IMG/VR virus record: IMGVR_UViG_3300021961_000350
Coordinates: 1 to 32,766 of that record
Reading direction: 5' to 3' (one strand)
Length of the DNA stretch: 32,766 nucleotides
Source of the DNA: a virus
Position numbers and translations under genes: made by a program. The notes below the pieces were generated by a model. The model worked only from the letters and a program-made list of their open reading frames with translations. It did no database searches and was not told where the DNA came from. Shown piece after piece: positions 1 through 32,766 of the stretch (its first letter is position 1; each line of letters starts with the position of its first letter).

Positions 1-31
1 TAGGTACATCATTTAGTTTGGGTAATGCCAT
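1..31 (-). CDS. 26: Baseplate hub protein, gp26-like (5' end only)
   Basis: Only the first ten codons are in the window, reading MALPKLNDVP on the minus strand; the gene runs off the left edge. Its ATG overlaps the stop codon of the preceding gene by one base (TAATG), the coupling used elsewhere here. A MALPKLN start is, as I remember it, typical of the gp26-like T4 baseplate hub family in marine T4-like phages, and the neighbouring tail-tube and gp4 genes fit that. With so few residues the family call rests on recall and context. No catalytic or binding feature can be seen. Confidence 0.5.
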   Translation of the reverse strand, partial: MALPKLNDVP

Positions 32-273
32 TATGCTCTCCTTTTCAATACTTCCCAAGCATCAACTTTTATAAATCGTTTGTTTGTTTCGTTTTTATTT
101 GGATTAGGTATAGTGATTTTTGCTTTTTTACCAGCATTAAATGCCTGCACTTGTGCTATAAATCTATCAATACTTTCTAACCATTCACTTCTATTTTTAT
201 TTAGAACTTTTTTATTATGATTATTACCACCACCAGAAGTTCTACTTGTTCTACTTCTTTTTCTTTTTGCCAT
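31..273 (-). CDS. Small basic protein of unknown function
   Basis: This codes for 80 residues. The first 25 are very basic and low in complexity (Lys, Arg, Ser, a Gly run and Asn), followed by a more ordered part with WLESIDRFIAQVQAF, which looks helical, and a PNPNKNETNK loop. There is no signal peptide or membrane segment. It lies one base after the tail-tube-like gene and overlaps the gp26-like start, so it is co-translated with baseplate and tail genes. The ATG has an AGGAA Shine-Dalgarno about 9 bases upstream. I believe small proteins like this occur at the same place in related marine phages, but no function is known to me. A role in tail assembly is inferred from position only. Confidence 0.6.
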   Translation of the reverse strand: MAKRKRSRTSRTSGGGNNHNKKVLNKNRSEWLESIDRFIAQVQAFNAGKKAKITIPNPNKNETNKRFIKVDAWEVLKRRA

Positions 274-274
274 A

Positions 275-970
275 TTATGTTCCTATTCCTAATCTAACTA
301 AACCACTTAATAGGTTTTGTTCAATTACTCTTGAGTTTTGATAACTTATTTGTACTGTCAATTCACCGATTACATTTTGGTCATTTGTTAAATCAATAGA
401 TTGTATTGTAGTAGGAAAAGCATTTTCTAATACAATAGTATAAACAGTATTACCATTAGGACCTAATATAATTTCAAATGGCCCTTTTTTTAATTCTTGA
501 TTTGTTATAGGTCTTTTTAATTGATGTATTTTTATATCTCTTTGATATTCTCTCTTATATCCTACTTCACCAGTTTGTTCGTTTACTATAGAACTTTTCC
601 AACCTTCAAAGAATTTCCTCACACCATAATCATTCAGTAAATAAAATGATAAAGTAACATCAGGAACTGCATAACCATAAGCAACTAAATCAGGTTGCAT
701 ACCAATTGTTCTTTCTCTAGTCATAATCTGTTTGCCTGGTATTGTTGCAGTTCTACACAATATATCTAATTCTCTTGATGTAGGATAATTATCGAGAAGT
801 CCAGGAATGTCTTGTCTAGTTGGAAATGGTATTGTAACTCCAAATAAGTCTGATATTCCAGGTATTCTTAATGCACCACTAAATGTTGGTATTTGAATAA
901 GAAACTGATTAGTTCTTGCTATTCCACCTTTACTGCTAATTAAACTCTTTAGTTCATCAACTCCTGCCAT
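275..970 (-). CDS. Tail-tube-fold protein, gp54/gp19-like baseplate tube protein
   Basis: This is a 231-residue protein of the T4 tail-tube (gp19) fold family. Family signs are LCRTATIPGKQI near residues 71-82, the following strand-rich segment ending LSFYLLNDYG, and a C-terminal part with ENAFPTTIQSIDL and VQISYQNSRV. Such proteins stack as rings; versions at the bottom of the tail (T4 gp54 and gp48) start polymerisation of the tube on the baseplate. Its place among gp26-like, gp4 and gp48 genes rather than next to a sheath gene argues for the baseplate initiator over the main tube subunit. The start overlaps the upstream stop (TAATG), with AGGAG about 12 bases before the ATG. The fold is fairly sure; which ring it makes is inference. 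Confidence 0.65.
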   Translation of the reverse strand: MAGVDELKSLISSKGGIARTNQFLIQIPTFSGALRIPGISDLFGVTIPFPTRQDIPGLLDNYPTSRELDILCRTATIPGKQIMTRERTIGMQPDLVAYGYAVPDVTLSFYLLNDYGVRKFFEGWKSSIVNEQTGEVGYKREYQRDIKIHQLKRPITNQELKKGPFEIILGPNGNTVYTIVLENAFPTTIQSIDLTNDQNVIGELTVQISYQNSRVIEQNLLSGLVRLGIGT

Positions 971-1554
971 TAAATCATTCTCCTACTTAACTTATATACA
1001 CTATTTGCATTTGCCTTTTCCCAACTAGCAGTCGGTAAAAATGTAGCAATTTCCCATTCAGTTGATGGAACTCTTGCGAATCTACTTTTTAAATGTTCTG
1101 TCAAATAACGTTTAAAACAAGGTTTAAAATATTTTAACTTTGATGCTCTTTGTAGCATTTCGTATGTGATTTGAAATCTTGTTGTATTATCATATTTTTT
1201 ATTGTTTGAATGTTCAAGTAATGCGTCTAAAAACTTGGCACGTAAATCCATAGGTAAGTAATGAAGATTAAGACCATAAAATCCTTTTTCAGCAGGACCA
1301 ACTATGATTGTAAGCGGAAATCTATCAAAGAATGGTAATGTATCTTTAGTCTTTGGGTCATAGAAAAACATATTCATAGTGCCAATCAACTGTCTATTTT
1401 TTAATTCCAAAGATTCATCTTTCATCAATTGATTACGATTGATGTTTCTCATATTACGCAGTTTGTTGGCAAACCAATCACGAGATTGTCGTGTTCGTGG
1501 TGTGATACCAGCACGAAATGCCTCTTGTTCTAGTGTTTGAAATAGATTACTCAT
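970..1554 (-). CDS. Conserved phage protein of unknown function, next to gene 4
   Basis: This 194-residue protein is soluble, basic at both ends and without membrane segments. The first 65 residues are helical and charged (LEQEAFRAGITPRTRQS, then an Arg/Asn-rich stretch). The middle has a strand-rich motif with FFYDPKTKDTLPFFDRFPL and GPAEKGFYGLNLHYLP, and the C-terminal third has YFKPCFKRYLTEH and WEIATFLPTA. I recall similar proteins beside gene 4 in marine T4-like phages, annotated only as hypothetical. It is transcribed with gp4 and the tail-tube gene, so a role in head completion or tail assembly is likely but unproven. A late-promoter-like box ends five bases before its ATG. Confidence 0.6.
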   Translation of the reverse strand: MSNLFQTLEQEAFRAGITPRTRQSRDWFANKLRNMRNINRNQLMKDESLELKNRQLIGTMNMFFYDPKTKDTLPFFDRFPLTIIVGPAEKGFYGLNLHYLPMDLRAKFLDALLEHSNNKKYDNTTRFQITYEMLQRASKLKYFKPCFKRYLTEHLKSRFARVPSTEWEIATFLPTASWEKANANSVYKLSRRMI

Positions 1555-1558
1555 AACT

Positions 1559-2059
1559 CTATTTATTCTTTTTATTTGGTTTTTTATAAGGTTTATATGG
1601 TTTTAATGTCTTTAATTTACCTGGCATTTTACTCATCAACTTCATCTCTTGTAGAGTCTTTTCTGTCCATACTTGAAACTCCCACCCTCTGTCTTTAGCA
1701 TAATTATCTGCCGCTTCCCACTTATTCATATTCTTGACATAAGTTAATGCTTCAGTCATATACTTTTTAGTCTTTGAAACTTTTGGCAGTTCAGTTTCTT
1801 TCTCTGGTTTGATTTCAACAAGTACAACTTTACCACTCTTATACTTAATCTTTAAGTCTACAAAGTATCTGTGGTATCGTTTATCGACTGCATAGAAGTA
1901 TGGTATGACTATTTCTTCACTAGACCATTCTCTTACATCATCATTTGTATCGCACCAGATGAACACTTTCAGTTCCCAACCAGAGCGAAATACCACATTT
2001 GTAAAGTCACCTTTATATTTCTTTGGGTTCTTTACTTTATATATTCCAGAATATGCCAT
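1559..2059 (-). CDS. 4: Head completion protein gp4, PD-(D/E)xK nuclease-like
   Basis: This 166-residue protein matches the gp4 head-completion family of T4 (about 150 residues): the MAYSGIYKVKNPKKYKGD start and FRSGWELKVFIWCD are typical. The sequence carries a PD-(D/E)xK nuclease pattern: Glu29 in the GWE helix, Asp68 in RYFVDLK, then Glu82-Ile-Lys84 in VEIK. In T4, gp4 acts on the filled head before tail joining and is thought to trim or process the DNA end. The C-terminus is a Lys/Pro-rich tail (KPYKPYKKPNKKNK) that could touch DNA. It is the first gene of the minus-strand group, and a late-type box lies upstream at 2090-2097. The family call is strong; nuclease activity is inferred from the motif. 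Confidence 0.8.
   Translation of the reverse strand: MAYSGIYKVKNPKKYKGDFTNVVFRSGWELKVFIWCDTNDDVREWSSEEIVIPYFYAVDKRYHRYFVDLKIKYKSGKVVLVEIKPEKETELPKVSKTKKYMTEALTYVKNMNKWEAADNYAKDRGWEFQVWTEKTLQEMKLMSKMPGKLKTLKPYKPYKKPNKKNK
1560..1567 (-). promoter_or_regulatory. Late-promoter-like box (AATAAATA), minus strand
   Basis: On the minus strand this reads AATAAATA, one mismatch from the T4 late promoter TATAAATA. It overlaps the stop codon of gene 4 and ends five bases before the ATG at 1554. A T4-type late start would fall at or next to that ATG, giving a leaderless message. The spacing and the trailing bases (ATAAATAG-NN-TTATG) match the site before gene 25. Confidence 0.35.
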
Positions 2060-2066
2060 ATTTTCA

Positions 2067-2074
2067 TATAAATA
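2067..2074 (+). promoter_or_regulatory. T4-type late promoter (TATAAATA) for gene 48 onward
   Basis: This is a perfect TATAAATA box in the 50-base gap between divergent genes 4 and 48. Expected transcription start is about position 2080, leaving a 30-base leader with an AGGAAT Shine-Dalgarno before the ATG at 2110. It would drive the plus-strand tail-cap, hub and wedge genes late in infection through the phage late sigma factor. Confidence 0.75.
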
Positions 2075-2089
2075 AAACTAAATTAAAAC

Positions 2090-2097
2090 TATTTATT
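2090..2097 (-). promoter_or_regulatory. Late-promoter-like box (AATAAATA) for gene 4, minus strand
   Basis: Read on the minus strand this is AATAAATA followed by G, one mismatch from the late consensus. It sits 30 bases upstream of the gp4 ATG and faces away from the box at 2067-2074; the two transcripts would overlap by a few bases at their 5' ends. It is a reasonable candidate for driving the minus-strand group. Confidence 0.45.
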
Positions 2098-2109
2098 ACA
2101 GGAATAGAA

Positions 2110-3294
2110 ATGGCGAATTACGCAATACAAAGTGCACCAGAATTTTTAAATTTTCCTTTAGAGAAACAAGATAGGTATAGAGCAAGAATTAAGTTTGAAC
2201 CTATAAGAATGGAAGAAGTTACTTTTATAGGGAAAGATAAGGCAAAGGCCCAGTTAAGTTATAGTTGGGAAGAAGTTAGAGATTTAGGTGCTAGAATATC
2301 AAGTGGACTTGTTGGTTTTCTCGGTGATGCTATTTTTGGTGATGACAACGCAACTGATGAACAAAAAAAAGTTATCGATGCCGAAAGAAATAGAGCAAGT
2401 GTTATAAGAGAAGGTATTGTTACAGGTTCAAAAGATTTAGTCAGAAGTCAACCTATAGTAAGAACTAGAAAATATTGTTATCTTTATATGCCAACAGGTA
2501 TACAATTTAACGACCAAGTGAATGTTAAAAATGCAAATATAGGATTAACAGGAGCGGCCGCAATGAGTGCCGCAAGAAATCTAGGTTTGCCAAGTGATAT
2601 AGGGGCCGCAGGAAGTCTTCTTGCTACAACTTTTGGTACAGCACTATCAACTGTTTTTGATGTTGCTGACAATCCAGCGGCATTCGCGGCAATTGCGGCA
2701 AAGACTGCTCAAACACTTGATTTTGCAAATCTTGTTGGTGGTGAAAACATTGCCGCAGGTATACAATTAGCATCACAAGTTGTGGCAAATCCTGTAACTC
2801 GTGCTATATTTGATAACGTACCTTTGCGTATATTTACATTTCAGTTTAAATTTATTCCTTTGTCACCTAGAGAATCAGAAGAAATTGAGAAGATTATATA
2901 TTATTTTAGAAGTGAAATGTTTCCAGAAGCATTAACTTTTACAACTTCTGGACTTCCATTTGGTTTTAAATTTCCAAGTATGTTTGATGTCAGACTACAA
3001 TATGGAATGAGTAATAATGCAGGAACAAGTACATACAGAGTTCTTCCTAATACTGATATTTTACCATGTTATTTGATAAACATTCAACACAATTATAACC
3101 CATCTGCTATGTCATTTCATAAAGGTGGTAAACCTACAGAAGTTGATATGTCTTTAACTTTTATGGAATACAGACCTCTTGTTAAACAAGACATAGAAGA
3201 TTTTGGTAAAAAAGGAAATGTAGGCCCATACAAGATAGAAGACGGCGAAGAAATTATAAGTTTTATTCCGCAACAAAATAGGGTAGAGGAATGA
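2110..3294 (+). CDS. 48: Baseplate tail-tube cap, gp48-like
   Basis: This codes for 394 residues from the ATG at 2110. An upstream in-frame start at 2023 is rejected because it lies ahead of the late promoter and inside gene 4. The start (MANYAIQSAPEFLNFPL) and the C-terminal segment FQFKFIPLSPRESEEIEKII, followed by FRSEMFPE, are marks of the gp48/gp54 tail-tube junction family. In T4, gp48 sits on the hub and gp54 follows it to begin the tube. The middle (about residues 140-240) is a long Ala/Gly-rich stretch with many Ala-Ala pairs, possibly an exposed loop or helix absent from T4. It overlaps gene 53 by four bases (ATGA). T4 gp48 has 364 residues. Confidence 0.7.
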   Translation: MANYAIQSAPEFLNFPLEKQDRYRARIKFEPIRMEEVTFIGKDKAKAQLSYSWEEVRDLGARISSGLVGFLGDAIFGDDNATDEQKKVIDAERNRASVIREGIVTGSKDLVRSQPIVRTRKYCYLYMPTGIQFNDQVNVKNANIGLTGAAAMSAARNLGLPSDIGAAGSLLATTFGTALSTVFDVADNPAAFAAIAAKTAQTLDFANLVGGENIAAGIQLASQVVANPVTRAIFDNVPLRIFTFQFKFIPLSPRESEEIEKIIYYFRSEMFPEALTFTTSGLPFGFKFPSMFDVRLQYGMSNNAGTSTYRVLPNTDILPCYLINIQHNYNPSAMSFHKGGKPTEVDMSLTFMEYRPLVKQDIEDFGKKGNVGPYKIEDGEEIISFIPQQNRVEE

Positions 3295-4058
3295 GTTATT
3301 TTAGAAATTTCAATACAATTAATTACAGATTTGGCAATAATGAAAACGCAGTAGCATTTCCAGAACTGTCAATATATTCTTCAGTCATTGACCAAATTAA
3401 AGATAATATAACATCATATCAAGAATACACTATCCTTGAAAATATGAGACCTGACCAAGTATCATATGAATTATATGGTTCTACTGATTATTATTGGACA
3501 TTCTTTTTACTTAACGATAATATTCGTGAACAAGGTTGGCCTTTAAGTGAAGTCGAATTGCTTGAACAATGTAAACGAGATTTTTCAGGAACAACTTTAG
3601 TTACTGCAGATGATTTAGTAACAGATAAAACAACTGCTACAGGTTCAGTCAGAGATAAAATAGTAGTTGGTTCAACTATTCAAGGTCAAACATCTGGCAT
3701 AACAGGTTTAGTAACTAAAAGACGTTTAGATTTGGGTCAAGTTGTTATAGAAGGAACAAAGTCTTTTACACAAGGCGAAACAATATTATTATCAACTGAT
3801 GTTAATGTAAGTTTTACTGCGACAACAGTTGTTGCAGAATATTTAGCAACACACCATTGGGAAAATGCAAGTGGTGAATATGTAGATTTAATAAATGCAA
3901 ATGGTGTTGTTGATATAACAGGTGGCGCAAGTAATACTGCAATAACAAATTATGATAGATACATTCGTTCTAATAATTTACTAAAAGAAATTAAAGTTAT
4001 AAAACCTAATGTAATAAGTCAAATATACAACGCACTACAAACATCAATTAGGGTTTAA
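3291..4058 (+). CDS. 53: Baseplate wedge protein gp53
   Basis: This 255-residue protein opens with MSYFRNFNTINYRFGN, and residues 35-85 have ENMRPDQVSYELYGSTDYYW followed by TFFLLNDNIREQGWPLS, both strong marks of gp53, which clamps the wedge core (gp25-gp6-gp7) to the hub. T4 gp53 is 196 residues; the extra length comes from a Gly/Thr-rich beta insert at about residues 105-185 containing GSTIQGQTSGITG and FTQGETILL. After the insert the chain returns to a wedge-like ending with HHWENASGEYVD and INAYDRYIRS-type sequence. A related insert is seen in gp8 and in the 1220-residue protein. The gene overlaps gene 48 by four bases and is followed two bases later by the hub gene. Confidence 0.85.
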   Translation: MSYFRNFNTINYRFGNNENAVAFPELSIYSSVIDQIKDNITSYQEYTILENMRPDQVSYELYGSTDYYWTFFLLNDNIREQGWPLSEVELLEQCKRDFSGTTLVTADDLVTDKTTATGSVRDKIVVGSTIQGQTSGITGLVTKRRLDLGQVVIEGTKSFTQGETILLSTDVNVSFTATTVVAEYLATHHWENASGEYVDLINANGVVDITGGASNTAITNYDRYIRSNNLLKEIKVIKPNVISQIYNALQTSIRV

Positions 4059-4060
4059 TT

Positions 4061-5509
4061 ATGCCTAATTATCAAAATGAAGGTTCTTCTTATAAATTAT
4101 TGTCTGCTTTGTTGACAAGCGAAAGGATATCTCCTTATCAATATGAAATAGCAAACTGTGTGTCAGACATTAACATTTACGAAGATATTAATAGACCTTT
4201 TCTTACAGGTAAAATTGCATTTTCTGATTTTAATGATGTTATTAATAAAATTTCTTTTAGTGGTGATGAAAAGATAAAATTAACATTAAGAAAATCTGAT
4301 ACAAATGCTGAAGATATAGTTAGAACATTTAATCTTGATTATATTATAGAATCTAAAGAAGTAAATAATAATTCTGCTGAAGTTTATGTTTTTCACATGG
4401 TTGAAGATGTTGAGTATGAATCTAATATAAAAAATGTTAACAAATATTATGAAGGCAAACCATCAGAGATTATTCAAAACATAATCAATGATTATATACC
4501 TAATAGAGTTTTTGTTAATGTTAGTCCTAATCACGAATCAGATAATATTCTTAAAGTAATAATACCTAATTTAAACCCTTTAGAAGCAATAAATTGGGTT
4601 TGCAAAAAAGCAAACTCAGATGATGGTTTGCCTTTCTTTTGTTTTACAACACTTTTAGGTGGAGGAACAAATAACAATTATTTCATATATTATATTAATT
4701 TAAAGTGGCTTTTATTACAAGGTGTTCTTAATAAAGAACCTTACACATATACACAATCTTCTTTAACAAAAAATTCAAATGAATATGGTAACCCTGGTGA
4801 AAGACAAATAATAAATCAAAGATATCAAATATTAGATTATAAAGATACAAGTTCTGATGACTTACGAACTCTTATATCTGAAGGAATGATTGGTTCAACA
4901 CACAGATTTGTTGATATTATAAACGGCGAAGAAAATAAAGTTAGACAAAATATAGGTTATAGTTTAGTAAGATTACAACAATTAGGATTATTATCTGATG
5001 ACTATTTAGGTTACACATATAATATTGCTTCTCGACAAGATAACATATTACTTGCAGAAAAAGAATCTGCAAAAATCTATAATTACCCTTCATTGAAACC
5101 TTATGAAATAGGATTTTCAAATCAAACTTCTATGGTTGAAGAAAGAGATGGTGGTTCTTACGGACTGAAAGTCAATTCTACTGCAATTTTGTATTTGCTT
5201 TACAAAAGAAAAATGACAATTACTTTAGAAGGTGCAAACTTTATAGGAACAAATGTCAACAGAACAGTCGGTAACTTGATAAACATAGCATTTATAAAAC
5301 CAGACCATAGTGATAATTCTAAAAGTGATTATGATAAAAGAAAATCAGGAAGACAGATAATAACAAAGGCCGTACATATGTTTAAACAAAATGATTATCA
5401 TATTGGTTTAGATATTTGTAAATTAGAATCAATTAAAAAGTCTCCATCAAGTCCTGCACAAGATGTAATAGATGCTTTACAGTTTTTTGAAGGAATAACT
5501 ACCGTATGA
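4061..5509 (+). CDS. Baseplate hub protein, gp27-like
   Basis: This 482-residue protein lies between gp53 and the gp5 head, where marine T4-like phages keep their hub gene. The N-terminal half has the order expected of a gp27/gpD hub: a beta domain beginning near YQYEIANCVSDINIYEDINRPFLTGKIAF, a VFHMVEDVEYES segment and an EGKPSEIIQNIINDYI segment resembling the region in hub proteins that binds the spike. T4 gp27 has 391 residues and forms the trimeric socket for gp5. The C-terminal quarter has VNRTVGNLINIAFIKP and YHIGLDICKLESIKKS. It starts two bases after gene 53 and overlaps gene 5 by four bases. The identification is by context and fold pattern, not close similarity. Confidence 0.55.
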   Translation: MPNYQNEGSSYKLLSALLTSERISPYQYEIANCVSDINIYEDINRPFLTGKIAFSDFNDVINKISFSGDEKIKLTLRKSDTNAEDIVRTFNLDYIIESKEVNNNSAEVYVFHMVEDVEYESNIKNVNKYYEGKPSEIIQNIINDYIPNRVFVNVSPNHESDNILKVIIPNLNPLEAINWVCKKANSDDGLPFFCFTTLLGGGTNNNYFIYYINLKWLLLQGVLNKEPYTYTQSSLTKNSNEYGNPGERQIINQRYQILDYKDTSSDDLRTLISEGMIGSTHRFVDIINGEENKVRQNIGYSLVRLQQLGLLSDDYLGYTYNIASRQDNILLAEKESAKIYNYPSLKPYEIGFSNQTSMVEERDGGSYGLKVNSTAILYLLYKRKMTITLEGANFIGTNVNRTVGNLINIAFIKPDHSDNSKSDYDKRKSGRQIITKAVHMFKQNDYHIGLDICKLESIKKSPSSPAQDVIDALQFFEGITTV

Positions 5510-6462
5510 TACCTACAGTTAATACAAAATATTATGGTAATAATTTTAAATCGTTTTATGGTAAAGTCATAAACGTTAATGACCCTTTACAACTTGGTAG
5601 AGTTCAAGTGCGTATTTATGGTGTGCATACAGAAAACGAAGTTGATATACCGACAAAAGCATTACCATGGGCGTCTGTTGTTTTACCTACAACTGAAGGT
5701 GGTGTGTCTGGTATAGGATTAAATAGTGGACTAAAACCTTTCTCGACAGTTTACGGTGTATTTGCAGATGGTGAAAACGCACAAGAACCATTAGTATTAG
5801 GTAGTGTTCCTAGTTATCAAAGAGACCCTCTTATGAAAGACACTAGTTTTAATTTTAATATTGGAACACACGATTTTAGAGTGCCTACAAGAAAACCTGA
5901 TAATTTAAAAACTCCTGATGATATTGATGAGCAACTTCTTATTGGTGATAGTAATATTGAAAAAGCATGGAATTGGTTTAGAAGTAAAGATGGTGGTGAA
6001 TATTCTACAGTTTCAACTGCAGGCATAATAGGTAATCTATGGGTAGAAAGTTTTGCCAGTATTAACAATAATGATTTAAATCCTTCTGCTATTCAAGGCG
6101 GGGGTGGACCTGGTCGTTATCTTGCACAATGGGAAATTGGTAGCGATAGATACAATGAATTAGAAGAAAGGTCTGCAGGTATACCTATAACATCTATGTA
6201 TGCTCAATTAAGATTTATTTCATATGAACTTGATAAATATCCATACTTTGGAAAAGCAAGACTTGTACAAGCAAGAACACCAGAAGAGGCGTCAGATATA
6301 TTCATGGTTTTATATGAAAGACCTAAAAATTATAACGGACCATTACCAAAACCAAGGTCTTTAGGTGGTACTGGACCAGATGATTATATACCGTTAAGAT
6401 ATTCTTCTGCTATTGAAAGAAGAGAAACATCTAGAGATATTTTTAACAACTTTACTTCGTGA
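5506..6462 (+). CDS. 5: Baseplate hub tail lysozyme: gp5 OB-fold plus lysozyme domain
   Basis: This 318-residue protein has two domains. Residues 8-105 are the gp5-type OB fold (FYGKVINVNDPLQLGRVQVRI, then PLVLGSVPSYQRD), which docks into the hub. Residues 148-310 look like the Phage_lysozyme2 family: AGIIGNLWVESF with Glu181 as the likely catalytic residue, NPSAIQGGGGPGRYLAQWE and DRYNELE. It would cut peptidoglycan as the tail crosses the periplasm. T4 gp5 instead carries a T4-lysozyme domain and ends in a beta-helix; here the helix is missing and is supplied by the gene at 7715. The start overlaps the hub gene by four bases (ATGA). Residues 106-147 form a Pro/Asp-rich linker. Confidence 0.8.
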   Translation: MIPTVNTKYYGNNFKSFYGKVINVNDPLQLGRVQVRIYGVHTENEVDIPTKALPWASVVLPTTEGGVSGIGLNSGLKPFSTVYGVFADGENAQEPLVLGSVPSYQRDPLMKDTSFNFNIGTHDFRVPTRKPDNLKTPDDIDEQLLIGDSNIEKAWNWFRSKDGGEYSTVSTAGIIGNLWVESFASINNNDLNPSAIQGGGGPGRYLAQWEIGSDRYNELEERSAGIPITSMYAQLRFISYELDKYPYFGKARLVQARTPEEASDIFMVLYERPKNYNGPLPKPRSLGGTGPDDYIPLRYSSAIERRETSRDIFNNFTS

Positions 6463-6467
6463 GTATT

Positions 6468-7715
6468 ATGTCATTAAATAGTACATTAAGAACAATTGCA
6501 AATAAAGTAAACTTACCTGAGTTGGCAAATAAGGCCACACAGTCTATACTTAACTTTCGTTCTTTATTTCAATCAGACGGTAAAGAAGTTGGTGATATTG
6601 TAGAAGGTTTTGAAATAATTGCAGACGAAGGTTTAGGCACGAAGAAAGAAACACTTGTTCCTATTGTAGGTCGACTAACTGAAAATGCAGGAATTAGTCT
6701 TAAGTCTACATCATCACGAAAAAGTGATATTAGTACAATTACAGGCCAGACAGTCGTTGATGGTTTCTTACATTCATCTATATCAAATGTAAATACATTA
6801 GGTATAAACAATACTCTTAGTGCATTGTCAAGTGATGCTAGTAGTATCAATAAACTTATTTCTAATCTTGCAGGTGGTAATATAAGTGATATTATATTAG
6901 ATAATACTTCTGCTGAAGGTATTGCCAAAGAATTTGTCAAAGAATTTTCTAATATATCAGATGCAAGTGGTGATTTAATAAGTTTGATACAATCAGAATT
7001 AGGAACAAATGTTGTAAGTTCTGTTACAGGCGATACTAATATAAAATCAATACTACAAAACAAATTAGGCACACAATTTAAATCATCTGAATTATCAAAT
7101 AATAATATTATAGTTAACTCTTCAGGAACATTTAGTGGTGCGTCTACACCAGATGATTATCAGTTTACTTATGTAAATACAGTTGAAGAATTGATGTTAG
7201 AGTTTAGAAACTCTACAAGAGATTTCTCTCAAATTATTGTTGAATATACAGGTGAATATGTAGACGATAATTTTGACGCAAAAGATTTTCAAACATTATA
7301 TTCAAACACAAGTGAATGGGATGGAATACCATATCACTATCTTGTAAGAAAAGATGGTAGAATACAAAGAGGTAGACCACTTGATATTGAAACTGTTTAT
7401 GTAGGCGGTGATATAAATTATTCTAAGTCAATTGTCGTAGCAATCCCAGGTGGTTATGATGTTCCTGAAGGAACTGAAAGAGCAAAGAAGTCTGTTAATA
7501 GTTCAACAACAAGCAGTTGGTATTGGTTTAATACATTGTTAGATGTTGCATACACAATGTTCCCAGGCATACAAGTTTATGCGTCAACAGAATTAAGTAA
7601 CACTGGTTGGTCTGCAGATGCATACATTGAGAGTTTATTTGGTAAAAGAAATAATATACAACCATCATCTAGTGCTGTAACAAGAAGCACTTTAGTTAGT
7701 ACGGAACCAGAATAA
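6468..7715 (+). CDS. Hub-associated protein with amidase-like domain lacking zinc ligands
   Basis: This codes for 415 residues from the ATG at 6468; a GTG at 6459, overlapping the lysozyme stop, is also possible but has no visible Shine-Dalgarno. Residues 1-215 are Ser/Asn-rich and look helical or fibrous. Residues 235-395 resemble an N-acetylmuramoyl-L-alanine amidase of the Amidase_2/T7-lysozyme type: QIIVEYTG, then IPYHYLVRKDGRIQRGRPLD, VVAIPGGYD, and an ending TELSNTGWSADAYIESLFG. In active members the first strand ends in a zinc-binding His, and the last motif supplies another His and a Cys or Asp; here those positions read Glu/Tyr, Tyr/Ala/Ser and Trp. It may bind cell wall without cutting, or be structural only. 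It lies between lysozyme and spike genes. Confidence 0.55.
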   Translation: MSLNSTLRTIANKVNLPELANKATQSILNFRSLFQSDGKEVGDIVEGFEIIADEGLGTKKETLVPIVGRLTENAGISLKSTSSRKSDISTITGQTVVDGFLHSSISNVNTLGINNTLSALSSDASSINKLISNLAGGNISDIILDNTSAEGIAKEFVKEFSNISDASGDLISLIQSELGTNVVSSVTGDTNIKSILQNKLGTQFKSSELSNNNIIVNSSGTFSGASTPDDYQFTYVNTVEELMLEFRNSTRDFSQIIVEYTGEYVDDNFDAKDFQTLYSNTSEWDGIPYHYLVRKDGRIQRGRPLDIETVYVGGDINYSKSIVVAIPGGYDVPEGTERAKKSVNSSTTSSWYWFNTLLDVAYTMFPGIQVYASTELSNTGWSADAYIESLFGKRNNIQPSSSAVTRSTLVSTEPE

Positions 7716-9552: not shown

Positions 9553-9555
9553 ATA
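9548..9555 (+). promoter_or_regulatory. T4-type late promoter (TATAAATA) at gene 25
   Basis: A perfect TATAAATA box overlaps the stop of the preceding gene and ends five bases before the gene 25 ATG at 9561. T4 late starts lie five to six bases past the box, so transcription would begin at or beside the ATG. It may serve gene 25 as a leaderless message, or mainly genes 6 onward. Confidence 0.6.
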
Positions 9556-9560
9556 GTCTT

Positions 9561-10144: not shown

Positions 10145-10145
10145 C

Positions 10146-12967: not shown

Positions 12968-12972
12968 ACTGA

Positions 12973-12980
12973 TATAAATA
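12973..12980 (+). promoter_or_regulatory. T4-type late promoter (TATAAATA) before the fibre and gp8 group
   Basis: This perfect TATAAATA box lies six bases after the preceding stop. Start is expected near 12986, giving a leader of about 19 bases with a purine-rich AGAGAGAG Shine-Dalgarno region before the ATG at 13005. It is the cleanest standard late promoter in the window and would feed the fibre-like gene, gp8 and the large structural genes. Confidence 0.8.
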
Positions 12981-13004
12981 ATATAAAATAAGAGAGAGTA
13001 TTTT

Positions 13005-21359: not shown

Positions 21360-21374
21360 GAGGCAATTTTTATT

Positions 21375-23940: not shown

Positions 23941-23953
23941 AATAACTCTAAAA

Positions 23954-23967
23954 TATTTATATAAATA
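23954..23967. promoter_or_regulatory. Palindromic pair of late promoters (TATTTATATAAATA)
   Basis: These 14 bases are a perfect palindrome containing TATAAATA on each strand (23960-23967 plus, 23961-23954 minus), sharing two bases. The plus arm would start near 23973 toward the gene at 24003, which has an AAGGAG Shine-Dalgarno. The minus arm would start near 23948 toward the glycosyltransferase pair, eight bases before its ATG. Both genes would thus be late. Confidence 0.75.
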
Positions 23968-24002
23968 AAATTAAAGTGAAATGAAAAATACAAGGAGTAA
24001 TT

Positions 24003-25843: not shown

Positions 25844-26895
25844 TTTTCTGATAACCTTTGAAGTTTATTAAATGATTCACCTTTATTGCTACAGTACTTT
25901 ACGCATTGTTTTACAGGACTTTTTGATAACCAACTTTCTGGAAGTGTGTCATTAAACCAATCACTCTCTTCAAGTATCTGTTCAAGAGGTTTTAAAAATA
26001 TATTATTATCTTTTTCTTGTTTTTTATACTCTAACATAGTTTCGCCATTGAACACTTGTGGTCCAAATTGATAATAATTATTTGCAAGGTAACAACAAGG
26101 TAAAACTTGACCATCAGGGTTAACTAACACTTTTCTTAGTTCTAACCATTTACACGATATACAATTACTATTATTTTTTTTCTTTTGTGTTTTTAACACT
26201 ACACCATCTATTTGTTCAGGTAATTTATCTGCATATTCTAAAGTATACTTTGAACCATCAGGATTTGTATATTCAAAATATCTGTCTTTTTCAGATAATC
26301 TATCAGACCAGATGTAACTATGACCACTAGCACCATTCTTTAAACACATTTCTTTTATTTCTTGAAGGTCATTTTGATTATGTTTAAACACAATTGTTTG
26401 AGCAACAACTTCTGCTTCAGTCATAGATAAAGATTTCATATTCTCAAGAACTTTGTCCAAGTCTGTGAATTTTCTGTATAATTGGTGTTGATGTTTATCT
26501 TTACCATCTACACCAAAAACTACTCTTAATCTGTCACCGCATAATACACCTAAATCCCACCACCATTTTTCATCACGAATACTACCATTTGTATTAATTA
26601 TGATAATAGTTTTTTGTAGATTGTTTTTTGTTTCTTCAACAATATATTTACATATTTGAAATATATCTTTATTCATTATAGGGTCACCCCAAGTACCACA
26701 TATCTGAAATATACTTGTTAGTTTTAATGTACTAGGTCTGTATGCTTTTTTAAAATCATCAAGAGACCAACTGATTAAAGGTAACCAGTCTGCTTTTTTA
26801 AGACCATCTGGATTTGTTCTATGACATTGAGGACAACCTGCATTACAATGCGTTGTTATATCTGCAAATATATCAAAGTACTTTTTAGGCCACAT
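25840..26895 (-). CDS. Radical SAM protein with SPASM-like C-terminus
   Basis: This 351-residue radical SAM enzyme has its iron-sulfur cluster motif C-x3-C-x2-C at Cys17, Cys21 and Cys24 (THCNAGCPQCHRT), followed by the GTWGDP loop (residues 67-72), which stands in for the GGEP motif that binds SAM. A second cysteine set (Cys245, Cys248, Cys267, Cys268, Cys331, Cys335, with NPDGQVLPCCY) is of the SPASM type, which holds extra clusters in enzymes that modify peptides, proteins or sugars. It overlaps the preceding radical SAM gene by 11 bases and the following glycosyltransferase by four. No precursor peptide is seen beside it. The target is unknown; a peptide, protein or sugar substrate is possible. 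Confidence 0.8.
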   Translation of the reverse strand: MWPKKYFDIFADITTHCNAGCPQCHRTNPDGLKKADWLPLISWSLDDFKKAYRPSTLKLTSIFQICGTWGDPIMNKDIFQICKYIVEETKNNLQKTIIIINTNGSIRDEKWWWDLGVLCGDRLRVVFGVDGKDKHQHQLYRKFTDLDKVLENMKSLSMTEAEVVAQTIVFKHNQNDLQEIKEMCLKNGASGHSYIWSDRLSEKDRYFEYTNPDGSKYTLEYADKLPEQIDGVVLKTQKKKNNSNCISCKWLELRKVLVNPDGQVLPCCYLANNYYQFGPQVFNGETMLEYKKQEKDNNIFLKPLEQILEESDWFNDTLPESWLSKSPVKQCVKYCSNKGESFNKLQRLSEK

Positions 26896-28021
26896 TAAAG
26901 ATGCTCCGAAAATCTATTTTACGGTGTTTAGATAAACTCAAACAATAGTTCATTGCTTGTTGATATTCTTCTTCATTATATTCTTTGGACAATTCTCCTT
27001 TTACCATATCATACATTACATTTGAGTATTTGTCAAGTAATTCTTGTTTATTTTTAATATTTTTACAAGACAACATTGACGGATTTGTTACGACAGTTTC
27101 AAAATTGACAGTAAGATTAAAATTATCTTTGTAGTAATTATAGATTTCTGTTAAATCATTTACATTTAAAATACTAACAGTACAATCAATACCAGATATT
27201 ATGTGATGTGCTTCTTTTAAATTTCTTTCAAATTCTTCAACGTCTATAGGATATCTTATCCAACTTAACTTTTTTTGATAGTGGTCTGAAGATACATCAA
27301 TGAACAAAGACTTAAATTTATTTGTTATATCAAACACACTATAATTTTTATAATGTAATTTTGTTAAATTTGATTGAAAACGAATAGTAATATCTTTTGC
27401 GTTCTCATCTGGTATTCTGTCCATAATTTCCCACATACGAGATATGATTACAGGTTCACCGCCTATGAATCTTATGCTATTGACTTTATCAATATTTTGT
27501 ATTATATTATCAACTATCTCATCAAATCTTTTTGTACCTAAATTTTTAGGACTATCATCAAAAGAGTAACCTATACCCGGAACAGGTTCTTCTTTGTTTT
27601 TCCATAGTTTGTCTATACCAGATTCTTTGAGTTCTTGTCGTCTAAATGATGAATTATATGGTATACACATATAACAACCTAAATTACAATGCGAACCACC
27701 AATACGAAGTTTTAAATCTATTTTGTCAACTGTCGATTTTTGTTTATAGTATTTGTTATATTTTTCAGTTCTTGGAGACAATTTTCCTGCATCTTCAAGT
27801 TTATAACAATACTCACAACCTTGAACACGTTTACCTTCCATCATATCCTGACGAATTTGTTCCATCTCGTCAGACATAAAATAGTCAAAAGGTAATGTGT
27901 TTATTGCGTTGTACTTTTCAATAGATTTATTATTTGTTGCAAAACAACAAAGTCTATATTTTGAGGCGTTATCACTATAAATTTCATTAAAGGGATAGGC
28001 GCAGTACTTATTTTCTGCCAT
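26885..28021 (-). CDS. Radical SAM protein with N-terminal twitch-type cysteine domain
   Basis: This 378-residue protein has cysteines ahead of the radical SAM core: Cys7, Cys25, Cys26, Cys69 and Cys72 (KYCAYPFNEIY, YRLCCFAT, GCEYCYK), as in the twitch-type radical SAM proteins where the auxiliary cluster precedes the core. The core motif C-x3-C-x2-C is at Cys112, Cys116 and Cys119 (HCNLGCYMC), and a canonical GGEP is at 187-190 (RFIGGEPVI). Such N-terminal twitch proteins are common in marine phages but their substrates are unknown. It leads the four-gene minus-strand operon. Its start is 64 bases from the divergent radical SAM gene at 28086. A late-like box (TGTAAATA, 28028-28035) ends six bases before its ATG. 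Confidence 0.8.
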   Translation of the reverse strand: MAENKYCAYPFNEIYSDNASKYRLCCFATNNKSIEKYNAINTLPFDYFMSDEMEQIRQDMMEGKRVQGCEYCYKLEDAGKLSPRTEKYNKYYKQKSTVDKIDLKLRIGGSHCNLGCYMCIPYNSSFRRQELKESGIDKLWKNKEEPVPGIGYSFDDSPKNLGTKRFDEIVDNIIQNIDKVNSIRFIGGEPVIISRMWEIMDRIPDENAKDITIRFQSNLTKLHYKNYSVFDITNKFKSLFIDVSSDHYQKKLSWIRYPIDVEEFERNLKEAHHIISGIDCTVSILNVNDLTEIYNYYKDNFNLTVNFETVVTNPSMLSCKNIKNKQELLDKYSNVMYDMVKGELSKEYNEEEYQQAMNYCLSLSKHRKIDFRSIFNVA

Positions 28022-28029
28022 AATAAATA

Positions 28030-28058
28030 TTTACAAATTATATAATTTATGTTATAAT
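28030..28058 (+). promoter_or_regulatory. Sigma-70-like promoter (TTTACA-17-TATAAT) for the plus-strand island operon
   Basis: TTTACA (28030-28035) and TATAAT (28053-28058) are separated by exactly 17 bases, one mismatch from a perfect host vegetative promoter. An AAGGAG Shine-Dalgarno (28075-28080) follows, five bases before the ATG at 28086. No perfect late box serves this gene. The region is very AT-rich, so chance matches are likely. A second TATAAT lies at 28041-28046 within a palindrome. Confidence 0.5.
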
Positions 28059-28085
28059 TATATATAATGATTATAAGGAGTTTAA

Positions 28086-29057
28086 ATGTTACCTATTAAA
28101 AAGGCAGTTATAGAAGTATGTGGCGCCTGTAACTATAAGTGTCAGATGTGTCCGCATTCATTTGATGGTGGTCGTGAAAGACCATTTCGTCAGATGATGA
28201 ACTATCAAATGTATCTTAATATATTAGACCAATTGATAGATTCAGAAGTTGAAGAAATATATCTTGAAGGCTCTGGTGAACCTGGTATGAATAAGAAACT
28301 TCCAAGTTTTATAGAAGCAGGACACGAACGAGGATTTAAAATGTCTTTTATCACAAACGGTTCTTTAATGCAAGGACAGTTTATGAAAGATATTGTAGAT
28401 GCAGGTCTACACTTTGCACGATTCTCTGTTACTGGTTACAATCGTGAAAAGTATAAAGAGTGGATGTCCGAAGATAATCTTGATATGATTATTAAGAACG
28501 CAAACGATATGATTGCATATATCAAAGAATCAGGTTCAGATGCAACGATTGGTTCATATCATCTTGTATTAGATAATGATAATCAAGAATATGAGATAGA
28601 ACAGTATCAAAAGAACTTTATTAATAAGGTGCCTGGTATCAAGGCGTCTATATGGCGTATGCACAATTGGTCAGGTGTCTATGATGAAATTACTTGGCGT
28701 AAAAAGAAGTCAGTCAGACGTTCTTGTGGTAGACCATTCTCACCTGATATTATTATTCGTGCTGGTGGTAATGATGGTAAGAAAGGTGCAGTTGTTCCGT
28801 GTTGTATGGTACTTGGTCAAGATAGTAAAGCAGTTCTTGGTCACTTATCAGAAAATACCATTGAAGAAATATACAATGGTGAAGCATACGAACATTTAAG
28901 AAAAATGCATAGAGAACATAGATTTGATGAAGTACCATATTGTAAAGGTTGTGATATGTTATACGACACACCAGAAGCAATGGTATGGTCAAACTTTGAA
29001 ACATCTTACCATGTATTAACAGGTGGATTATTTGATATGAGGGAGTTCAGACTATAA
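28086..29057 (+). CDS. Radical SAM/SPASM protein
   Basis: This 323-residue radical SAM enzyme carries C-x3-C-x2-C at Cys15, Cys19 and Cys22 (ACNYKCQMCPHS) and GSGEP at 62-66 in the SAM-binding position. The C-terminal SPASM part has Cys214, Cys239, Cys240, Cys286 and Cys289 (RRSCGRPF, VVPCCMVLG, YCKGCD), which would bind extra iron-sulfur clusters. SPASM enzymes act on peptides, proteins, sugars or similar; this one lacks a nearby precursor peptide. It heads a five-gene plus-strand operon of paralogues and an oxygenase. It has the strongest Shine-Dalgarno in the island (AAGGAG) and looks more evenly coded than the genes after it. It is divergent from the twitch radical SAM gene, suggesting joint control. 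Confidence 0.8.
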   Translation: MLPIKKAVIEVCGACNYKCQMCPHSFDGGRERPFRQMMNYQMYLNILDQLIDSEVEEIYLEGSGEPGMNKKLPSFIEAGHERGFKMSFITNGSLMQGQFMKDIVDAGLHFARFSVTGYNREKYKEWMSEDNLDMIIKNANDMIAYIKESGSDATIGSYHLVLDNDNQEYEIEQYQKNFINKVPGIKASIWRMHNWSGVYDEITWRKKKSVRRSCGRPFSPDIIIRAGGNDGKKGAVVPCCMVLGQDSKAVLGHLSENTIEEIYNGEAYEHLRKMHREHRFDEVPYCKGCDMLYDTPEAMVWSNFETSYHVLTGGLFDMREFRL

Positions 29058-29950
29058 AATATATCGATACATTATGTATTAATTGTGAGATGTCTAACAG
29101 TGGTTGGGAAATAGCACAATTAAATAGTTCGCACGTTATAAGAATGGACATTGGTCAATATCATTCTTATACTGTCTTTATTAGTTTATTTGGTGAAGTA
29201 TTTCATATAGCACAACAGTTACAATCAGAAGGTATATTAGACAGGCCTTATAAAGTTGCAGTCGTCATTCCTAAAATAGAATCATATAAAAATAGAGAAC
29301 CTGAAGATAATTTGACACGAATGAAGTTTATTTTAAACAAGTTTGTTCCTCCAGATTTTGGAATAGCAATTACTTTCTATGAGCATTGGCAAGAAAAAAA
29401 GGTTATTAAACCATTTGGAGCACATTGGGTTTGGCCATATAAAGATAGATGGGATAGAAAAAAATGTGAAGATTATGTTGTACTACAAGATATAACAGGT
29501 TTAGATAATGATTGGCGATATACAGATATAGAAGGAACTCATAATAGAATTAAAAAAGAATTAGATACTCTTTCTATTGATTATAAAATACTTGGTTATA
29601 AAAATACAGTAGAAGAATTATATTTTACATTGTTAAATGCAAAATTACTTTTAGCACCACCAGGTAGTTCTTATTGTATTGCCGCTGGTTTAGGATTGCC
29701 AACATTAGGATTTGGACACAATTGGTTGACAGTAACAGATAATTATGTTATGAAAAAACCGATGGGAACAAAAGAATTAATACCTGTATTATATACTGGG
29801 TGGGGAAATTGGTCGCAAAATGATACTAAGATTGTACACTTTGATAAAGAAAATGGATTACATAACAGACCTCAAAGCAATACGATAAATATAGGTAAAT
29901 TTGAAACTGATAGAGATTATGAAATTTTAAGAAAAAAAATTATGGAGTAA
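29054..29950 (+). CDS. GT-B-like island protein, paralogue 1 (probable ATA start)
   Basis: This codes for 298 residues if it starts at ATA 29054; the first ATG is at 29090. The extra 12 codons read I/M-KYIDTLCINCE, matching MKYIKTLYINTE of the paralogue at 30479, and GAGGGAG (29039-29045) sits eight bases before the ATA. The C-terminal half has LLLAPPGSSYCIAAGLGLPT (about residues 198-217), the Gly-rich donor-binding pattern of GT-B enzymes such as heptosyltransferases. The N-terminal part has GAHWVWPYKDRWD, shared by the paralogues. It ends NIGKFETDRDYEIL, shared with copy 2. It is the second gene of the operon and overlaps the radical SAM stop (ATAA). Glycosyltransferase activity is possible but not certain. 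Confidence 0.55.
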   Translation: MKYIDTLCINCEMSNSGWEIAQLNSSHVIRMDIGQYHSYTVFISLFGEVFHIAQQLQSEGILDRPYKVAVVIPKIESYKNREPEDNLTRMKFILNKFVPPDFGIAITFYEHWQEKKVIKPFGAHWVWPYKDRWDRKKCEDYVVLQDITGLDNDWRYTDIEGTHNRIKKELDTLSIDYKILGYKNTVEELYFTLLNAKLLLAPPGSSYCIAAGLGLPTLGFGHNWLTVTDNYVMKKPMGTKELIPVLYTGWGNWSQNDTKIVHFDKENGLHNRPQSNTINIGKFETDRDYEILRKKIME

Positions 29951-29954
29951 AATT

Positions 29955-30479
29955 ATGTGGCAATATGAAGTCGTTGATGACTATTTAGATAAAAAAACAT
30001 TTGATTCTTTTATAGAAGATTTAAGAGGTGTAAAATTAGAAGATAATGAAGTTTATAGAAGATTCTTTACTTATGACCCAACACCACAAATTGCAGAGTT
30101 AGTTAATAAATTTGAAATAAAAAGACCTTGTAATAATTATAAAAAATTAATACACTATGCAGTAACACCTGCTAATTTTTTTCACAAAGAACATTATGAA
30201 GCAGATTTTAAAATAATGTCTGCAATTGTTTATTTAAGTCCAGAAAAAAATATCGGTACAACTTTAGTTGATTATAGAACACCTGGCCCAAACGAGGGTG
30301 ATTTGTATGAAAAAATTACATTAGATTGGAAACCAAATCGTATGATGACTTTCTGTGGTCTAGATGATATCACTTGGCATTACTACGAATCAACAGATGT
30401 TCGATTTACATATAATTATTTTTTAGTTGACCCAGATAAAATACAAAGTGATGAATGGAAACAACATCTTATTGATTAA
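29955..30479 (+). CDS. 2-oxoglutarate/Fe(II) oxygenase-like protein
   Basis: This 174-residue protein has the order of a small prolyl-hydroxylase-type dioxygenase: HKEHYEADFKIMSAIVYLSP with a likely metal pair at His80 and Glu82 (an H-x-E motif; His77 and Glu79 are an alternative), GTTLVDYR, LDWKPNRMMTFCGL, distal ligand His142 in WHYYES, and Arg150 in VRFTYNYF, where the 2-oxoglutarate carboxylate binds. Similar proteins are common in marine T4-like phages. It lies between two paralogous GT-B-like genes, four bases after the first and one base overlapping the second (TAATG), so the three act together. It could hydroxylate a sugar, peptide or protein residue before glycosylation. Confidence 0.65.
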   Translation: MWQYEVVDDYLDKKTFDSFIEDLRGVKLEDNEVYRRFFTYDPTPQIAELVNKFEIKRPCNNYKKLIHYAVTPANFFHKEHYEADFKIMSAIVYLSPEKNIGTTLVDYRTPGPNEGDLYEKITLDWKPNRMMTFCGLDDITWHYYESTDVRFTYNYFLVDPDKIQSDEWKQHLID

Positions 30480-31420
30480 TGAAATATATTAAAACATTAT
30501 ATATTAATACTGAATCAACAGGTGAAAGAAATGATTTATCATCTTCGTATGTAGAAATATTACCATACTTTCATCATCATGCATATAACTGGTCTGTATA
30601 TGTTTTAGGAAAAGTATTTTTTTTATCTGAAAGATTACAAAGTTCAGGAATATTAGATGGTCCTTATAAAGTTTCTATAATATTTCCTACAATAGAAAAA
30701 TTTAAAGAGTCTGATAGTGAAACTAATTTAGAAAGATGGGAATTTATATGTAATAATTTTTTACCTCCTAGTAAAGGAATAATTATTTCTTTTTATAATC
30801 AAGAAAAAGATGTAGAAGATAAGACAATAGATTTTCACGGTGCATGGTATAATTGGCCATACAAAGATAAATGGCAATGGAGTTTAAATGAGAAACAAGA
30901 TTATGTTGTAATTCAAGAAGTAGAAGAAGCAATTGTTGGGAAATATAAAAACTATGTAGATAATAGTTTAAAACATTTTAGGTATTATAATTTAGGAGAG
31001 ATATATAATAGAATTATAAAAGAATTAGAAGTATGCGGAATAAAATATAAAATTATAAATTATAAAACTTCAGTAGAAGAAACTTTTACTTTATTATCAA
31101 AATGTAAAATGTATCTTACTTATACAGGTGGTGCAATATATCTTGCTGGAGGAATGAATGTTCCTACATATTCTTTTGGTGATAATCCTTGGGCATCGAT
31201 AGAAAAAACTCCTATCAATATGCCTTTAGGTTGGGAATTCACAAAGAAAAGATTTACTGATTCTCTTTGGGGTAGACTTCATGTAACCCCATGGAAAGTT
31301 TTTCATTATAATAAAGAAATGGGTGTTCATCAAACAAGTCAAAAATATATAACAAATATAGGTAAATTTGAAACTGAAGAAGAACGAAATATATTAATGG
31401 ATATATTAATGAAATTATGA
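30479..31420 (+). CDS. GT-B-like island protein, paralogue 2
   Basis: This 313-residue protein opens MKYIKTLYINTE, then SSSYVEILPYF, GPYKVSIIFPTIE (the paralogue has RPYKVAVVIPKIE), GAWYNWPYKDKWQW and YTGGAIYLAGGMNVPT at about 215-230, the GT-B-like donor motif. It ends YITNIGKFETEEERNIL, shared with copy 1. Between residues 100 and 170 it differs freely. Lys is frequent and the DNA is more AT-rich than around it. It overlaps the oxygenase stop by one base and the third paralogue by four bases (ATGA). The repeat arrangement suggests tandem duplication with the oxygenase gene inserted between copies. Enzyme class is inferred, not shown. Confidence 0.5.
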   Translation: MKYIKTLYINTESTGERNDLSSSYVEILPYFHHHAYNWSVYVLGKVFFLSERLQSSGILDGPYKVSIIFPTIEKFKESDSETNLERWEFICNNFLPPSKGIIISFYNQEKDVEDKTIDFHGAWYNWPYKDKWQWSLNEKQDYVVIQEVEEAIVGKYKNYVDNSLKHFRYYNLGEIYNRIIKELEVCGIKYKIINYKTSVEETFTLLSKCKMYLTYTGGAIYLAGGMNVPTYSFGDNPWASIEKTPINMPLGWEFTKKRFTDSLWGRLHVTPWKVFHYNKEMGVHQTSQKYITNIGKFETEEERNILMDILMKL

Positions 31421-32334
31421 AACTAATCAGAACATATTATCTCAACTGTAGAAACAACGAAAAAGCAACTCGTCAAAACGATACAATAAGATTTGATGGG
31501 TTTACTATGTGGCCTCATTGTACATTTATGAGTGCGTTATGTTATTCGTTTTGGAAAGCACAACTGCTACAACAAGAAGGATTAAAAGAACCTCGCAAAC
31601 TTTGTATTCTTGTTGACGAAGATATATTACACGGTAAAGCAAAACCAGAAAACGAATCAACATCTTACGAACAACTTGATTGGTTTCTTAATAATATAGA
31701 ACCACCTATGTATGGCATGATTGTATCAGTTTACAGTCATAAAGTTATTAAAACTATTGAAGATAGATGGTCTGCACAAACTATTTGGCCATTAAAGAAA
31801 GAATGGCAATGGGAAGGTGGCGGTGGTTACTTTACACTACAAGATATGGAAGATGGTGTGTCAACAAGAAAAAAGGGTATGAAGATGACACACGAAACTG
31901 TAGATATCATTGACAACATCTACGAACACTCTGCATTACCTGTTGTTAAGATAGACTATAAGATGTCAGAAGAAAAACTATTTAAGACTTTAAAGTATTC
32001 TAATCTCAACTTTGCATATCATGGTGGTACATATTATACTGCAGGTATGATTGGTTGTCCTACTGTTGGTTTATATTGGAATCAGAATCAAAAAGTTTCT
32101 ACACAATATTATGTTGACAAAAAAGAAAAATATGATACAGTAGAGTTTACTTCTTGGAATCTTGGTATAGGAAATACAGAAGGCAAAGTATTACAATACG
32201 ATTTCAATACGGTCTTTCAAAGACCACAAACATATCTCAAACATGTATCAATAAAATCAGAGTTATTATCTTATCTGAAATGCCAAAGCGACTTTACAGT
32301 CAACAAAAAAACTTACGAAATATCTTCATTCTAA
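31417..32334 (+). CDS. GT-B-like island protein, paralogue 3
   Basis: This 305-residue protein begins MKLIRTYYLNCRN, like the other two, and has QTIWPLKKEWQW (for the shared WPYKDKWQW), YFTLQDMEDG and YHGGTYYTAGMIGCPTVG near 205-222. It lacks the NIGKFET ending; instead it closes with HVSIKSELLSYLK and a short Lys-rich tail. It is the most diverged of the three paralogues and uses fewer rare AT-rich codons than copy 2, hinting at different age or origin. It overlaps copy 2 by four bases and is the last gene before the late promoter at 32346. Function is unknown; if copies 1 and 2 transfer sugars, this one may use another donor. Confidence 0.5.
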   Translation: MKLIRTYYLNCRNNEKATRQNDTIRFDGFTMWPHCTFMSALCYSFWKAQLLQQEGLKEPRKLCILVDEDILHGKAKPENESTSYEQLDWFLNNIEPPMYGMIVSVYSHKVIKTIEDRWSAQTIWPLKKEWQWEGGGGYFTLQDMEDGVSTRKKGMKMTHETVDIIDNIYEHSALPVVKIDYKMSEEKLFKTLKYSNLNFAYHGGTYYTAGMIGCPTVGLYWNQNQKVSTQYYVDKKEKYDTVEFTSWNLGIGNTEGKVLQYDFNTVFQRPQTYLKHVSIKSELLSYLKCQSDFTVNKKTYEISSF

Positions 32335-32345
32335 ATCTCTTTTTT

Positions 32346-32353
32346 TATAAATA
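32346..32353 (+). promoter_or_regulatory. T4-type late promoter (TATAAATA) after the island
   Basis: This perfect TATAAATA box follows a T-run after the last island gene. A start near 32359 gives a leader of about 56 bases ending in AAAGG before the ATG at 32415. It restores late control for the structural gene that follows. Confidence 0.75.
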
Positions 32354-32365
32354 ATTCATATAAGT

Positions 32366-32390
32366 GCAGGGGGTCGTTAGCGGGTCCGAC
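32366..32390 (+). other. GC-rich leader segment with possible small hairpin
   Basis: Within the 5' leader, 25 bases contain 17 G or C, including a run of five G (32369-32373), in an otherwise AT-rich genome. GTCG (32373-32376) can pair with CGAC (32387-32390) around a ten-base loop. The segment is open in frame with the following gene back to a GTG at 32364, but its residues (QGVVSGSD) do not look like the family's N-terminus. It could be a structured leader or a protein-binding site. Confidence 0.4.
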
Positions 32391-32414
32391 AAAGAAATCA
32401 AAGAAAGGTATTTC

Positions 32415-32762
32415 ATGGCACAATACGAAGAAATAAGTATCGACCAAGGTACTGATGTTGCTATAACTATGGACTGTTTTGATGAAACAGGTGCCAAAAA
32501 AGACCTTACCAACTATACTGTATACGCCAAATTAAAGAAGAATTATAATAGTGAAGATTTCACTAACTTTACTGCTATAATTAATAACCCTACGACTGAT
32601 GGCGGAATTACTCTCTCACTTACAAGCACACAAACAGACACTCTTAAGACTGGAAGACACGTTTATGATGTTGAATTACACTTTATTGATAGTGATGGCA
32701 ATACGATTGTTGAAAGAATTCTAGAAGGTAGAGTCCAAGTAATGCCAAGTGTAACCAAATAG
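32415..32762 (+). CDS. Small virion structural protein, beta-rich
   Basis: This codes for 115 residues from the ATG at 32415; an in-frame GTG at 32364 is less likely because the AGAAAGG Shine-Dalgarno fits the ATG and related proteins begin MAQY. The start MAQYEEISIDQGTDV, the middle DLTNYTVYAKLKKNYNS and the end RILEGRVQVMPSVTK form a compact, all-beta Ig-like protein. I recall proteins with this IDQGTD start and V-x-P-x-VTK end in marine T4-like phages, labelled structural or fibre-related. It is transcribed from its own late promoter and appears complete, with its stop four bases before the window edge. It could decorate or adapt a fibre. Exact location in the virion is unknown. Confidence 0.6.
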   Translation: MAQYEEISIDQGTDVAITMDCFDETGAKKDLTNYTVYAKLKKNYNSEDFTNFTAIINNPTTDGGITLSLTSTQTDTLKTGRHVYDVELHFIDSDGNTIVERILEGRVQVMPSVTK

Positions 32763-32766
32763 GATT

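Follow-up and report, generated by a model that had tools for sequence, protein, structure and literature searches.

Gene content of the window

The window, by which we mean the whole stretch of DNA analysed here (32,766 bases of a virus fragment, IMG/VR record IMGVR_UViG_3300021961_000350; GC 32%), is a fragment of a marine T4-like myovirus. It carries T4-like virion genes and a non-virion block:

31..22277: T4-like virion genes (ORFs with PHROGs matches)
275-970, minus strand: tail tube (PHROGs)
970-1554, minus strand: DNA end protector gp2 (PHROGs)
1559-2059, minus strand: head closure gp4 (PHROGs)
5506-8977: baseplate wedge/hub and tail lysozyme (PHROGs)
10146-12014: gp6 wedge (PHROGs)
15329-18991: long VrlC-like protein (PHROGs)
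22257..32334: non-virion block, including unannotated proteins (Pfam scan)
25840-29057: three radical-SAM/SPASM proteins within the non-virion block (Pfam scan)

Several proteins of the non-virion block are without a Pfam match, and Pfam recognised no methyltransferase or nuclease in the ten window ORFs between 22257 and 30479. Two convergent genes in this block, at 24003-24596 (plus strand) and 24499-25110 (minus strand), overlap by about 98 bases, and the same layout is found in the related contig G004. The nearest named relative is Phage C48C1 (Kyanoviridae), whose terminase is 68.6% identical to that of G004, a member of the same clade as the window; its identity to the VrlC-like protein of the window is 32%.

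GATC and AGCT are absent from the window

A preliminary description, made from the letters alone, had noted that GATC and AGCT appear to be missing and had called for a tetramer count against a maximum-order Markov model. Exact counting bears this out. Depending on the null, 82-104 GATC and 21-87 AGCT sites are expected in the window, which is the part of this phage's genome that all site counts cover, and neither word occurs once. The maximum-order model itself predicts 103-104 GATC and 21 AGCT, the latter value being low because AGC itself is depleted, and an order-1 Markov model predicts 86 and 87. In 200 shuffles of synonymous codons, which left protein and codon usage unchanged, GATC occurred on average 82 times (minimum 65) and AGCT 53-54 times (minimum 41). 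Both words lie below an observed-to-expected ratio of 0.1 with more than 15 sites expected (0/82 and 0/53), and both are at zero in each of the three codon phases.

Asp before a codon starting with C is encoded by GAC in 50 of 50 cases, in line with the pairs checked earlier, against 541 GAT to 117 GAC elsewhere. Ala following A never uses GCT, also as described, nor does it use GCC; Ile following G is ATC in none of 76 cases. Selection on DNA and not on protein, as proposed from these codons, is upheld by the synonymous-codon shuffles, by the empty codon phases and by the existence of similar proteins with and without GATC. GANTC, reported as not avoided, is indeed at expectation in coding sequence (83 observed, 82 expected).

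Further words are depleted, and GGCC is spared

Three further depletions had been missed. With protein and codon usage constant, AGCC and GGCT together occur 2 times where 53 are expected, and GCWGC 2 times where 26 are expected; CASTG occurs 5 times against an expectation of 28. GATC and AGCT are palindromes, and GCWGC and CASTG degenerate ones; AGCC/GGCT is not palindromic. The statement that other four-base palindromes do occur holds for GGCC, which is normal (22 observed, 19.5 expected), but CCGG (1 against 12 expected) and CGCG (1 against 10.5) are low and CATG is moderately low (31 against 52). In a constrained shuffle, in which GATC, AGCT, AGCC and GGCT were already forbidden, GCWGC (2 against 25), CASTG (5 against 27) and CCGG (1 against 13) were still depleted. 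The exact count places the few remaining tetramers as follows:

2685..2688, plus strand: CGCG, sole occurrence
4707..4710, plus strand: GGCT (AGCC on the other strand), one of only two
27577..27580, plus strand: CCGG, sole occurrence
28269..28272, plus strand: GGCT, second of only two

Since AGCC/GGCT is nearly gone and GGCC is spared, the signal first read as AGCT is really AGCY, that is, AGCT together with AGCC/GGCT. AGCT alone (AluI) was rejected as a reading, since AGCC/GGCT is just as absent and covaries with AGCT across contigs (rho 0.66); avoidance of full RGCY, as by a CviJI-like enzyme, was rejected on the normal count of GGCC. Ala after a codon ending in G is encoded by GCC 8 times and by GCT never, so that an enzyme-like preference spares GGCC and not GGCT. 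Where two Ala codons adjoin, the first is GCC 20 times, GCG 8 times, GCT twice and GCA never, yet GCA is the most frequent codon for Ala, with 393 occurrences outside that position. Codon choice in Ala-Ala pairs dodges GCWGC, which also accounts for a marked excess of GCCGC.

GATC was lost and regained among close relatives

We compared the window with its close relatives, contigs of 70-100% nucleotide identity to it. GATC occurs 0-2 times in 13 contigs of this clade (the window, L001, L002, L083, L087, L006, L081, L084, L005, G005, L088, G002 and L086) and is present in four others, G001, G003, G004 and L004. In a FastTree tree of the proteins, in which some contigs span different genes and the deep positions of L084 and L088 are uncertain, these four form one monophyletic subclade (support 0.998), and L086 is the earliest branch, followed by L005/G002. 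The simplest history that the tree suggests would be that GATC was lost before L086 split off and that the avoidance was then relaxed once.

The contigs that bear GATC differ from the window in a way that agrees with such a relaxation. The four contigs have 86 GATC sites that align with the window, which keeps none of them, against 54 of 118 GTAC sites in the same comparison; at 66 of the 86 the window is one change away, as expected if GATC re-accumulated by mutation. At homologous sites the window has GACC, GAAC, GTTC, GGTC or AATC; the changes include transversions and affect all four positions. TGCA is low in three of the four GATC-bearing contigs (G001, G003 and G004), as if the pressure had changed. 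Within this subclade, G004 (L099-L101) remains low in GATCA, with 24 against 125 expected, whereas the recovery of GATC overall has gone further (74 against 182).

Loss of AGCT and AGCC, which vary together, is limited to the branch of the window itself. The window, L001, L002, L083 and L087 show it strongly, and L006, L081, L084 and G005 in part. The loss of GATC is old and clade-wide, and that of AGCY, GCWGC and CASTG narrower and younger.

Near-elimination favours palindromes across T4-like relatives

GATC loss is not family-wide, since among 79 more distant T4-like contigs 78 have GATC at an observed-to-expected ratio of about 0.5 or more, and the sole GATC-poor one, L269, is the nearest to the clade. 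In 81 contigs of at least 8 kb, near-elimination (a ratio below 0.1) was found in 30 of 1069 palindromic tetramer cases and in 7 of 9453 non-palindromic ones; it is about 38 times commoner for 4-bp palindromes than for other tetramers. Five of the seven non-palindromic cases are AGCC.

Purging is genome-wide in long relatives. In G015 (L348-L354; 140 kb), ACGT is at 0 against about 292 expected and GATC at 18 against about 554, and G007 has no AGCT over 60 kb, with about 170 expected. Of 136 contigs, 38 have eliminated GGWCC, the site of SinI. A motif set resembling that of the window also arose in a distant T4-like group, L254-L256, where GATC is low and RGCY and GCWGC are nearly absent.

Methyltransferase genes and the polymerase-primase interval

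A D12-class methyltransferase is encoded by 22 of 70 polymerase-bearing contigs, usually between polymerase and primase. This D12/Dam-like enzyme is present in none of 18 contigs with a GATC ratio below 0.32 and in 22 of 52 others (Fisher p=3.5e-4, uncorrected for kinship); put the other way, 0 of 22 carriers and 18 of 48 non-carriers are GATC-poor. T4 Dam and the Dam family are its closest known counterparts, and many of the related phages that carry it there keep GATC; its specificity is putative, and its score against the Dam family model is below the cut-off. The association is suggestive of methyltransferase and GATC purge as two alternative defences. However, GATC ranks only seventh among 136 tetramers in its association with the methyltransferase, and the enzyme is also missing from many long relatives in which GATC is not lost. 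No D12, Dam or C5 methyltransferase was found in the scanned window ORFs or in the clade fragments, which do not cover the polymerase region; the helicase-bearing contig nearest to the clade is L269, of 6.3 kb.

In C48C1-like phages the polymerase-primase interval is a hotspot of exchanged restriction-linked genes, among them the D12 methyltransferase, a Mom-family DNA modification protein, a DruA-like protein and a SinI-REase-like mini ORF. The hotspot loci are:

L184: 33480-34364 (D12 methyltransferase of C48C1)
L233: 12480-13298
L237: 11795-12604
L215: 3753-4889
L195: 6055-7167
L268: 7673-8047

In another set of contigs, L257, L260 and L263, TTAA is strongly depleted (6/60, 16/111 and 7/63), a D12 methyltransferase is carried and GATC is intermediate.

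Discussion

It is very probable that a lytic-type phage lineage was here counter-selected against the sites that several Type II restriction enzymes of its hosts recognise. Any copy of the genome bearing a GATC site (for a DpnII/MboI-type enzyme) or an AGCY site (for an AluI- or CviJI-like one) would be cut before it is methylated, so that synonymous mutants in which the site is destroyed would survive; over time the sites would disappear and the proteins stay. Pressure on GATC would be old and common to the clade and pressure on AGCY, GCWGC and CASTG younger, and in the subclade G001/G003/G004/L004 the pressure would have been lifted, with sites returning through ordinary mutation. Non-temperate dsDNA phages are known to evade orthodox Type II systems by eliminating their sites (Rusinov et al. 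2018, PMC6286503). The data show the absence of the sites, its independence of the proteins, the bias towards palindromes and the gain and loss on the tree; restriction enzymes as the agent, and any particular enzyme or host, are inferred. A host search among genome contigs gave two matches only, at 32% identity.

A restriction history had already been proposed, in hosts with enzymes specific for GATC and AGCT. It remains the best explanation and fits the tree, but "AGCT-specific" was too narrow for a pattern that is AGCY with GGCC spared. With AGCY, GCWGC and CASTG beside GATC, the number of specificities implied rises from two to at least three or four, and a succession of hosts fits an old GATC loss, younger losses of the other words and a regain of GATC in one subclade. 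What counts against restriction is that AGCC/GGCT is non-palindromic, whereas avoidance in the published survey falls almost exclusively on orthodox Type II sites (PMC6286503).

The main rival is a phage-encoded nuclease, specific for GATC (and AGCY) and directed against host or competitor DNA, which would have led the phage to purge its own sites with no need of host restriction. Absolute zeros would suit such an ever-present weapon, and a hint of one comes from L268 and L251-L253, four contigs all without GGWCC, which have a small SinI-REase-like ORF in the polymerase-primase interval. This ORF is, however, found in only 4 of the 38 GGWCC-free contigs among the 136 examined, is about half length and lies near the family cut-off; the near-complete G016 lacks both GGWCC and the ORF, and neither PHROGs nor Pfam recognised a nuclease in the scanned window ORFs. 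We regard the nuclease as improbable. Dam, MutH and DpnI also act at GATC, which would favour its avoidance on grounds of host epigenetics (mismatch repair of the Dam/SeqA/MutH type, control of replication, or cutting of methylated GATC by a DpnI-type enzyme). Even though GATC is low in all 46 phages whose hosts have a GATC Type IIM system (PMC6286503), this explanation seems quite unlikely, because it does not account for AGCY, GCWGC and CASTG having gone at the same time, or for relatives having lost ACGT or GGWCC.

Very little can be said for mutational bias or composition, be it through low G+C content, codon usage or deamination of methyl-cytosine. A GC content of 32% might seem to invite it, but every codon-preserving shuffle gave at least 65 GATC, the differences at homologous sites include transversions and hit all four positions, and sister phages of equal GC retain GATC; the shuffles and the sister phages together refute composition or codon usage as the main cause. 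Nothing beyond the zeros themselves speaks for a library or assembly artefact, such as the use of restriction-digested DNA, which we consider hardly credible. Contigs of the same samples retain GATC (L031, 44/28, beside L002, 0/11, in metagenome 3300018424; L085, 27/34, beside L001, 0/20, in 3300021962; L117, 72/63, beside L093, 0/61, in 3300021964), which excludes it, and the codons compensate for the absent sites.

With host restriction as the preferred explanation, the phenomenon is of a known kind, here unusually clean, strong, and wider than was reported at first. Avoidance of restriction sites in dsDNA phages was surveyed by Rusinov et al. 2018 (PMC6286503), who also cite earlier work. 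Like the phages described there, the window belongs to a dsDNA phage of non-temperate type that has lost Type II sites almost completely (CB<0.1), and GATC is one of the words that the survey found low most consistently. It differs from them in that four or more specificities are lost together, AGCC/GGCT is non-palindromic, and gain and relaxation can be traced in one clade. Subgroups of pelagiphages are depleted in GANTC, clustered by phage phylogeny, for which evasion of a methylation-linked defence of the host was proposed (Seong et al. 2022, PMC9516812). These are likewise marine phages with a motif loss that follows phylogeny, but the window belongs to a T4-like myovirus, has GANTC at expectation and has lost GATC, AGCY, GCWGC and CASTG. 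Among restriction specificities, the RGCY of CviJI type is similar in that the window has no AGCT and almost no AGCC/GGCT, and RGCY is nearly all lost in the relatives L120, L125, L126, L135 and L254-L256; unlike it, the window keeps GGCC. No bacterial RGCY system turned up among the papers searched. The loss of AGCY with GGCC retained gives a hint of a so far undescribed specificity, or of GGCC being protected.

The interest of the case lies in this GGCC-sparing AGCY pattern, in the rapid turnover and in the similar motif set of the distant L254-L256. Tentatively, the clade may have met a new specificity for AGCY but not GGCC along with enzymes for GATC, GCWGC and CASTG; sets of eliminated words might then be barcodes of the restriction systems that a phage has met, and phages might alternate between purging and carrying a methyltransferase. 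With a tree of close relatives (70-100% nucleotide identity), some of which have GATC and some not, there is a clean natural experiment in which rates of purging and re-accumulation are measurable. The set of missing motifs makes a testable prediction of the restriction enzymes of the host lineage, and it may help to join fragments of one phage and to match phages to their hosts.
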